This document shows positions 15,197 to 60,751 of a stretch of DNA of 61,616 bases, in pieces. Origin of the DNA: Alicyclobacillaceae bacterium I2511 (GTDB lineage Bacteria; Bacillota; Bacilli; Alicyclobacillales; Alicyclobacillaceae). The notes under the pieces were generated by a model. That model saw nothing but the letters and a program-made list of their open reading frames with translations, was not told the DNA's origin and did no database searches. The translations under genes and the position numbers were made by a program. Numbering within the stretch: position 1 is the stretch's first letter; the number at the start of each line of letters is the position of its first letter. Location: contig QXHL01000017.1 in assembly GCA_003584005.1 (NCBI GenBank), forward strand, positions 1 to 61,616, read 5' to 3'.

Positions 15197-15873
15197 GGTA
15201 TGGATCGCTCCTGACGGGTTTGATTTAATTCCGGGTTTGAATGAATGTGATGTAGCCATCCCAGCATACACGATGTAGGGATCCCAGTATGCACTTTTAG
15301 TTTACTTGGAACAGGAACGAAAATACAGACGTTTGGTATAAAACAATCATGGCTTGACGGCCGTCCCAAGGATGAAAACGTAGAGGCTCCATTTAACGTC
15401 AGACCCTCCCGACTGCTTCACCTGGGGAGTCTACCCCTACCGATTTGGGTACGGTGTTTTACTCCCACGTGTAGAAGTGGGAGCTTCACGAGAGGATTAA
15501 CTTTTGCTTGAGTCCGCTAAAAAATTGACGATTTGCTGTGAAATGAGTAGAATAACCAGCGGACTATGTACTCGTATAATGCCGAGAATGGGCTTGGCAG
15601 TTTCTACCGGATGACCGTGAATCGTCCGACTACGAGGTTGATTGCAACGGTTGAACATAACGAGGCAGTTGCACCGAACATCTACTGAGCACATCTCGGT
15701 AGCATTCAAATCGAGATTGAAGATGGGATGGCGGTCCTCCTGTTTTGTCTGTGGAATGGACAACCTGGCACCTCGAGTCGTGACTTCCTTCATTTTATAA
15801 GGAGTCCCCGGGGAGGCTGGGTTTTGTGTTTTTTGCAGATTACAGGCAAAAACAAATTGAGGAGGACACGGAA
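15197..15873. other. Long gap with possible mobile-element scar
   Basis: Nearly 680 bases without a convincing gene. Near 15261-15301 lies an AT-mixed duplicated motif (GCATAC...GTATGC) that ends in GCACTTTTAGT, shared with the interspersed repeat family. From about 15395 to 15500 the minus strand has GC-rich stems, including the hairpin at 15462-15483. A minus-strand frame of 133 codons (15497-15898) shows no family likeness and runs into the permease gene, so I do not call it. The promoter for the permease at 15874 is presumably here but is not clear. Confidence 0.45.
15462..15483 (-). repeat. Hairpin resembling an IS200/IS605-type end
   Basis: CTCCCAC and GTGGGAG flank an 8-base loop; on the minus strand it reads GCTCCCACTTCTACACGTGGGAG in two parts. 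Such subterminal hairpins are typical of IS200/IS605 ends, and the adjoining CTCCCCAGGTGAAGCAG stretch is also structured. No tnpA or tnpB gene remains. This is an inference from motif shape only. Confidence 0.35.
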
Positions 15874-51093: not shown

Positions 51094-51315
51094 CACCTGA
51101 GAGTTCCCTTCGTTTCTGGGTCATCCAGCACCCGCCGCACCAAAGACTGCGATTGGAAAGTGGTGACAAACAAACGAAGTTGCCCCGTCGGTAGCCGACA
51201 CAAGTCGACTTCTCCAGAGTGGCATCCATCCGCGTTTTGCGACCTGAGAGTTTCTGCACGGGTTGAGGTGAATCCGCACATTGCCCCGTCGGTGGGTAGA
51301 AAGCCCCTCTCACGT
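51094..51315 (-). ncRNA. Tandem glycine riboswitch
   Basis: Two glycine aptamers in series on the minus strand. Each carries the conserved CCGACGGGGCAA core and CTCTCAGGT element: aptamer 1 at about 51206-51315 and aptamer 2 at about 51094-51205. Together with the terminator at 51053-51089 they form the leader of gcvT. Tandem glycine riboswitches normally turn glycine cleavage genes on at high glycine. The remaining 50956-51052 is the 5' UTR of gcvT. Confidence 0.93.
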
Positions 51316-51394
51316 GGACTTCATTTGCCCTAGTATGAGCATTAAATTGAACCACTGTGGCCAGAATACACTTACAAATACGAGTTCATCTTTC

Positions 51395-60413: not shown

Positions 60414-60488
60414 AAGGCGTTGGTGGCGAAGCCAATCCATGTGTTAAGATGTGTGGGAAATACGGAAATACAAAAAGGGGGTTAGGCC

Positions 60489-60740
60489 ATGTCGTCACGC
60501 CATGTGGTGATGTACGTTGTTCCACTTTGACCCTACTGTGCCCGCGCGAAGCGGTTCCTTTCGGGGAAAGGAATTACTGTGGAAGAACGGAATATTTTAT
60601 TTAATAAAAAACACCGTGAAGAAATGGCTCAGGTCACAGATGCCCAGACGGTGCCTGTAACTGTCCTGGGGGGTCACGTGGTGGTGGGTCATGATGTCCC
60701 AGCGTTTGACAGGGTCCTATCCCAGCTACATTGGAATTAA
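60489..60740 (+). CDS. Glutaredoxin-like protein with in-frame TGA at the first active-site Cys (probable selenoprotein, UPYC)
   Basis: An 83-residue glutaredoxin/NrdH fold if the TGA at 60528-60530 (codon 14) is read as selenocysteine. ATG 60489 has AAGGGGG seven bases upstream. Before the TGA: RHVVMYVVPL (beta-1). Right after: PYCARAKRFLSGKG (active site XPYC and helix 1). Further on: TVPVTVLGGHVVVGHD, the cis-Pro loop and beta strands. The frame ends at TAA 60738. The TGA falls exactly on the first Cys of CPYC and the rest is intact, which is unlikely for decay. An 8-bp stem with GGG loop (60555-60573) sits at a suitable distance. An internal GTG at 60579 with AAAGGA upstream could mislead gene callers into a 53-residue protein lacking the active site. 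Selenocysteine genes are not in the window. Confidence 0.82.
60555..60573 (+). promoter_or_regulatory. Bacterial SECIS-like hairpin
   Basis: Stem TTCCTTTC (60555-60562) / GAAAGGAA (60566-60573), loop GGG, possibly extended by two G-T pairs. The loop lies 32 bases after the TGA. A short stem with a G at the loop start within about 16-37 bases of the UGA is the usual bacterial SECIS pattern. Confidence 0.7.
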
Positions 60741-60751
60741 TTCCAATGTAG
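60726..60751. repeat. Perfect 26-bp palindrome shared by two gene ends
   Basis: The half CTACATTGGAATT is followed by its exact reverse complement. It encodes the last residues LHWN plus stop of the glutaredoxin on the plus strand and LHWN plus stop of the Fur-family gene on the minus strand; the stops overlap at TTAA (60737-60740). It may form a hairpin at both transcript ends. Confidence 0.9.

Follow-up and report, generated by a model that had tools for sequence, protein, structure and literature searches.

The segment from 60489 to 60740 on the + strand of the DNA analysed here (61,616 nucleotides of Alicyclobacillaceae bacterium I2511, hereafter the window) is predicted to encode an 83-residue, dithiol-type selenoglutaredoxin with the active site UPYC, and on the strength of computational tests we put the probability that it is a genuine selenoprotein gene at about 0.96. 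The first-pass annotation had taken the replacement of a catalytic cysteine codon by TGA as the sign of a selenoprotein, a reading that is supported by (i) the selenocysteine machinery of the genome, (ii) the recurrence of the TGA across the order, (iii) selection on the frame, and (iv) the hairpin that follows the codon. The features referred to throughout are these:

60489-60740, + strand: predicted coding sequence of the selenoglutaredoxin (83 residues, U14 included), ending in the stop codon TAA at 60738-60740
60475-60481, + strand: AAGGGGG, resembling a ribosome-binding site, 7 nt upstream of the start codon ATG (from sequence)
60528-60530, + strand: in-frame TGA, interpreted as the selenocysteine codon at the catalytic position of UPYC
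60537-60539, + strand: TGT codon for C17, the second, resolving cysteine of UPYC, which does not vary in alignments A1 or A2
60555-60562, + strand: 5' arm of the predicted SECIS hairpin (codons Phe-Leu-Ser)
60563-60565, + strand: apical loop GGG of the predicted SECIS hairpin
60566-60573, + strand: 3' arm of the predicted SECIS hairpin

When 60489-60740 is translated, MSSRHVVMYVVPL precedes and PYCARAKRFLSGKGITVEERN follows a lone internal stop, the TGA at 60528-60530, which occupies the first position of the xPYC motif; the product ends in LHWN. With the TGA read as U, this product matches the Pfam Glutaredoxin family (PF00462) over the entire profile (1-60 of 60) at 62.7 bits, relative to a gathering threshold of 22.9 (E 3.7e-17). 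Translation and full-length match together confirm the earlier description of a complete glutaredoxin frame in which the first cysteine codon of CPYC has become TGA, and the good ribosome site reported with it was also found. An AF2 model built from 23 sequences (mean pLDDT 94) has its elements in the order of a glutaredoxin: helix 15-26 begins right after U14, and strand 57-60 comes after P56, a proline that is invariant in A1. Many glutaredoxins were among the top matches of a fold search against the PDB, the best of them being 7c10. The truncated 53-residue frame starting from GTG at 60579, foreseen at first pass, is present in the program-made list of open reading frames; the gene is of a type that standard gene calling would overlook or shorten.

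A perfect 26-bp palindrome at 60726-60751 (two 13-nt arms, no spacer) covers the stop codons of both the glutaredoxin gene and the convergent Fur-family gene, and for this reason both proteins end in LHWN. In the same-genus relative, the glutaredoxin terminates earlier, at a TGA.

Selenocysteine machinery and conservation in the order

The genome that contains the window (as contig C88) is a 3.48-Mb draft in 232 contigs, 98.4% complete. As had been proposed, it was searched for selA, selB, selC (tRNA-Sec) and selD, and all four were detected above curated cut-offs. The selA match (549 bits) lies in an unbroken frame, and selB in a frame of 655 residues (318 bits, or 356 with the neighbouring match included); the tRNA-Sec carries the anticodon TCA, scores 70.3 bits relative to a cut-off of 47, and is recognised as such by both the Rfam model and ARAGORN. 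The selD frame (315 bits) is interrupted solely by its own expected TGA, at SGUAAK, which is followed by a 7-bp hairpin with the loop GGG. A formate dehydrogenase FdhA frame has a TGA at NRTUHAPS (TIGR01591, 651.6 bits, slightly under the cut-off of 666.25). As we take the SelD and FdhA sites to be expected selenocysteine positions, at least three genes of this genome, with the UPYC gene, have TGA where selenocysteine is expected. Within the window, TGA terminates 22 of the 46 stop-free frames of at least 200 codons, and is thus no general sense codon. The Rfam model SECIS_1 (RF00031) had no matches in this genome, but likewise detected none of 14 controls. Other Rfam matches in the window were a purine riboswitch (15552-15652, + strand, 71.1 bits) and a glycine riboswitch (51223-51324, - strand, 41.6 bits).

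We surveyed 59 genomes of the order, including this one. A match at E <= 1e-6 was found in 23 of them and a close homologue, scoring at least 65 bits, in 19, in which the catalytic codon is TGA in 16 genomes and cysteine (TGC) in three. Fifteen other genomes of the order therefore have TGA in the same codon, and one of these homologues (L054) belongs to a named strain, Sulfoacidibacillus thermotolerans Y002, of the family Alicyclobacillaceae; it reads PLUPHC around the TGA and has selD as a neighbour. The homologues with cysteine at the TGA column that the annotation had led us to expect were seen in the three genomes of the order and at eight of eight Desulfosporosinus loci. A search of the plasmid collection gave no matches.

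The TGA form and the machinery occur together: of the 16 TGA genomes, 15 have selA, compared with 14 of the 43 others (2 of the 3 cysteine-form genomes and 12 of the remaining 40), a difference with a Fisher p of 2e-5 when each genome is counted as independent. The sole TGA genome without selA (G045) is 65% complete, and this partial genome has no tRNA-Sec either. Among cysteine-form genomes, G038 has neither a selA nor a tRNA-Sec match, and G018 and G020 have both, so that selenocysteine is not essential for the function. The cysteine glutaredoxins of G018 and G020 (L031 and L030) have a TGA-form counterpart in the congeneric G019, which reflects either a recent exchange of selenocysteine and cysteine or the presence of paralogues.

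The choice of selA as the marker of machinery in this survey follows from false matches of the tRNA-Sec model. Although 29 of the 59 genomes exceed the Rfam cut-off, among the matches inspected individually those in G029 and G053 (its only match), as well as the second match in G052, are tRNA-Ser by ARAGORN, which confirmed tRNA-Sec in G000, G052, G055, and G058. Two tRNA-Ser genes with the anticodon TGA (L133 and L134) score 49.7 bits, just above the cut-off, so that in these genomes the cut-off alone yields false tRNA-Sec calls.

Relative to the nearest, same-genus relative (G039), dN is 0.104 and dS 0.85 over the 66 codons that follow the TGA, and the 13 codons upstream of it show four synonymous changes and no others. 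Judged from these substitutions, the frame downstream of the TGA is under purifying selection. One TGA-form homologue in the order (L043, in G027) has an extra in-frame TAG 15 codons past the TGA, and may be a decaying or broken gene.

The SECIS hairpin and its two registers

The hairpin described at first pass, an 8-bp stem with a GGG loop 32 bases past the TGA, is exact in the sequence: TTCCTTTC and GAAAGGAA pair perfectly over 8 bp, or over 10 bp when two further pairs are counted, with 32 nt from TGA to loop. The bSECIS model, as given in section 5 of PMC13188914, specifies a loop of 3-9 nt, a stem of 4-16 bp, a G in the first two loop positions, a distance of 16-37 nt from the UGA, and a minimum free energy of -7.5 or lower. 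With its GGG loop, 8-10 bp, 32 nt, and -9.7 kcal/mol (for the 27-nt hairpin), the window's element fits this description. The proposal to fold the mRNA past the TGA was thus borne out as regards the hairpin itself, but the energy of the single 63-nt sequence resembles that of its shuffles (z -0.27; 72 of 200 shuffles were as good), and the case for the hairpin accordingly rests on comparison rather than on energy.

That comparison concerns, above all, the choice of codons. Phe-Leu-Ser is written TTC-CTT-TCG in every TGA form of the order (15 of 15 distinct sequences), from 2, 6, and 6 possible codons, while the neighbouring conserved residues Pro+1, Gly+14, Glu+19, and Asn+21 vary synonymously in the same forms. 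In 11 cysteine forms (three from the order and eight from Desulfosporosinus) the Phe and Leu codons vary, and the Ser is retained in just four. The stem pairs at seven or eight of eight positions in every TGA form of the order and at three or four of eight in the order's three cysteine forms. The Desulfosporosinus cysteine forms pair at six or seven of eight at the corresponding place, however, indicating that pairing alone owes part to the protein sequence and is weaker evidence than codon choice. When the window's sequence was recoded at random with synonymous codons, its stem was equalled, with a G in the loop, in 0.9% of draws; the same figure ranged from 0.04% to 12% over the TGA forms of the order and from 3.5% to 18% over the Desulfosporosinus cysteine forms.

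We then extended the comparison to 398 Bacillota genomes searched with alignment A1, which gave matches in 107 genomes (119 match rows). Besides the window's own, 89 of the 119 rows were placed; the 29 rows left out list no TGA. Combined with the order and Desulfosporosinus, the set comprises 116 loci, whose 114 distinct sequences divide into 71 with TGA and 43 with cysteine. Outside the order, 56 distinct glutaredoxin-like sequences from the 398 sampled genomes have TGA at the catalytic codon. Selenoglutaredoxins had been called known but rare; the family is indeed already established, but this count does not agree with rarity.

A blind scan, which picks, without reference to register, the best hairpin that is perfectly paired and has a G in its loop, separated the TGA sequences into two groups. 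On the window's branch, the loop lies 31-32 nt past the TGA in 14 of 17 TGA sequences, the exceptions being L032 and L034, where a stronger hairpin lies closer to the UGA, and L160, which pairs at seven of eight positions with an internal mismatch. In the other TGA sequences the loop lies 22-23 nt past the TGA in 51 of 54. Few cysteine sequences behave in this way (1 of 11 on the window's branch at 31-32 nt; 4 of 32 of the rest at 22-23 nt). In the window's register, Phe-Leu-Ser forms the 5' arm, in the arrangement UUCCUUUC-GGN-GAAAGGAA, and the loop falls about 32 nt after the UGA. The second register pairs GAAAGA (within the Val-Lys-Glu codons) with UCUUUC (within Phe-Leu-Ser), and its loop, GUU or GUA, falls about 23 nt after the UGA. 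The same Phe-Leu-Ser codons that make up the 3' arm in most of the other selenoglutaredoxins examined from Bacillota therefore make up the 5' arm on the window's branch, a shift of exactly three codons.

Each register was then scored directly. On the window's branch, 17 of 17 TGA sequences form the window's register (pairing at seven or eight of eight, with a loop G) and 0 of 17 the other (six of six pairs); among the remaining TGA sequences, the counts are 3 of 54 and 50 of 54, respectively, with a loop G in 49 of those 50. Cysteine sequences had the window's register in 3 of 11 cases on its branch and 2 of 32 elsewhere; the second register was absent from the 11 and present in 3 of the 32, two of them with a loop G. 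Leu is encoded by CTT at 16 of 16 Leu codons in the first register and 47 of 49 in the second, as opposed to 9 of 41 in cysteine forms. The registers do overlap, in that 12 of the 54 also pair at seven or eight of eight positions in the window's register; three of these (L172, L219, and L222) have a loop G, and, being able on paper to form either hairpin, are possible stepping stones between the registers.

On an unrooted tree of 112 rows and 65 columns, from which the hairpin columns had been dropped, a single change of register accounts for the 66 TGA rows with an assigned register (four more were assigned to neither), and the window's branch unites 28 rows with an SH-aLRT of 98; with so few columns, and with 49 of 109 forks open, the tree is too weak to root the register change or to count the origins of selenocysteine. 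On balance, we favour the interpretation that the selenoglutaredoxins of Bacillota have their SECIS in two overlapping but mutually exclusive registers on the Phe-Leu-Ser codons, arising either (i) from two origins of selenocysteine that each recruited these codons, or (ii) from a SECIS that slid by swapping its pairing partner. Three cysteine sequences outside the window's branch (L163, L176, and L229) still pair at six of six positions in the second register, as would be expected of reversions from selenocysteine to cysteine; remnant SECIS-like structures have been reported in cysteine genes (PMC1794560).

In the literature searched, mostly without subscription papers and mostly judged from listings, we found no report of the register shift or of selenoproteins of this order; the main text of PMC12013277, which describes a prediction method, mentions neither glutaredoxin nor Bacilli. 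If the interpretation is true, the two registers amount to a natural test of how freely a SelB target can move. They also offer matched natural constructs for the spacing rules of SelB, with the same family and UGA site, a hairpin moved by three codons, and cysteine forms with remnant hairpins.

Alternative readings and a proposed mechanism

Several other readings of the TGA deserve consideration. Recoding of TGA to cysteine by unusual tRNAs exists, and a special tRNA that inserted cysteine, or some other standard amino acid, at the UGA would yield a normal CPYC glutaredoxin, in keeping with the cysteine that homologues have at this column. We nevertheless regard such decoding as very improbable: selA and selD score above their cut-offs in frames intact apart from the expected TGA of selD, the tRNA is a tRNA-Sec by both methods, the hairpin fits the bSECIS model, and TGA ends 22 of the 46 long frames of the window. 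There is even less to recommend the notion that a TGC or TGT was mutated to, or misread as, TGA, which would make the gene dead or ordinary. The genome comes from a draft assembly of 232 contigs, and one relative (L043) does look broken, but the identical TGA is shared by 16 genomes, that of S. thermotolerans Y002 included, purifying selection acts past the TGA, and the hairpin codons are fixed in TGA forms and variable in cysteine forms. We give equally little credence to a true stop, with the 53 residues from GTG 60579 as the sole product; that frame is indeed in the list of open reading frames, but, according to the fold model, its product would have no active site and would also be missing strand 1 and helix 1, and the 13 codons upstream of the TGA change synonymously only.

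Taking the gene to encode a selenoglutaredoxin, we postulate that SelB, with Sec-tRNA(UCA), would bind the hairpin with its GGG loop 32 nt past the UGA, and that selenocysteine would be inserted there, pre-empting the release factor. The selenolate of U14 would attack a disulfide or mixed disulfide, C17 would resolve the resulting selenenyl-sulfide, and the enzyme might be regenerated by a low-molecular-weight thiol or a reductase. The genome has bshC (402.9 bits), making bacillithiol a plausible partner.

The window's own neighbours, an exonuclease-like gene and the Fur-family gene, have no link to selenium, and their arrangement recurs, over flanks of 1.5-3 kb, in the same-genus G039 only. 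In some relatives, the neighbours are more suggestive: the glutaredoxin gene is convergent with selD in G058 and G057, which belong to one genus (L137:3751-4791 and L151:4418-5455), the selD of G058 having an in-frame TGA at AGUAAK; a NifS/IscS-like desulfurase is found beside it in G030, and rhodanese domains in G055, G027, and G040. A CcdA/DsbD-like protein adjoins the cysteine forms of G020 and G018. These neighbours weakly suggest a role in reduction during sulfur or selenium trafficking, weakly because, among the 20 frames scanned at 15 loci, three were without a Pfam match and the majority of the others were unrelated. More broadly, the gene points to a redox enzyme in the Alicyclobacillus group that uses selenocysteine. 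The 2006 census (PMC1794560) reports most selenoproteins from Deltaproteobacteria, Clostridia, and Actinobacteria, and three from Bacillales.

Comparison with known selenoglutaredoxins

UxxC selenoglutaredoxins are already known, and the window's gene belongs to an established kind of family. The UxxC glutaredoxin (PF00462) is a listed selenoprotein family with one selenocysteine (PMC13188914, PMC9312934), and was listed in 2006 for Geobacter sulfurreducens, Alkaliphilus metalliredigenes, and Moorella thermoacetica (PMC1794560). The lists of UxxC glutaredoxins in these three sources, in the portions consulted, name no member from Alicyclobacillaceae, and the main text of PMC13188914 does not contain the string 'alicyclobacill'. 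In NCBIfam, the window's protein matches Uxx-star (NF041212, 53.5 bits) and YruB (TIGR02196, 66.3 bits) best, in both cases under the curated cut-offs (66 and 88.55, respectively).

The cysteine glutaredoxins of Desulfosporosinus (L055-L062) share the window's branch of the tree, are 45-55% identical to its protein, and read CPYCARAK. They differ from it in having a cysteine codon at eight of eight loci and in the variation of their hairpin codons.

The best fold match is cGrx1 of Clostridium (Alkaliphilus) oremlandii (7c10_A; TM 0.78 by query length, 32% identity), with 84 residues versus the 83 of the window's protein. It is described as a native selenoprotein, with the catalytic selenocysteine in U(or C)PXC, and was crystallised with cysteine replacing selenocysteine (PMC7642778). 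The same source gives glutathione as the reductant of cGrx1, whereas the window's genome has bshC. Compared at the protein level only, cGrx1 reads VKEFLSENN, which is the wording of the other hairpin register.
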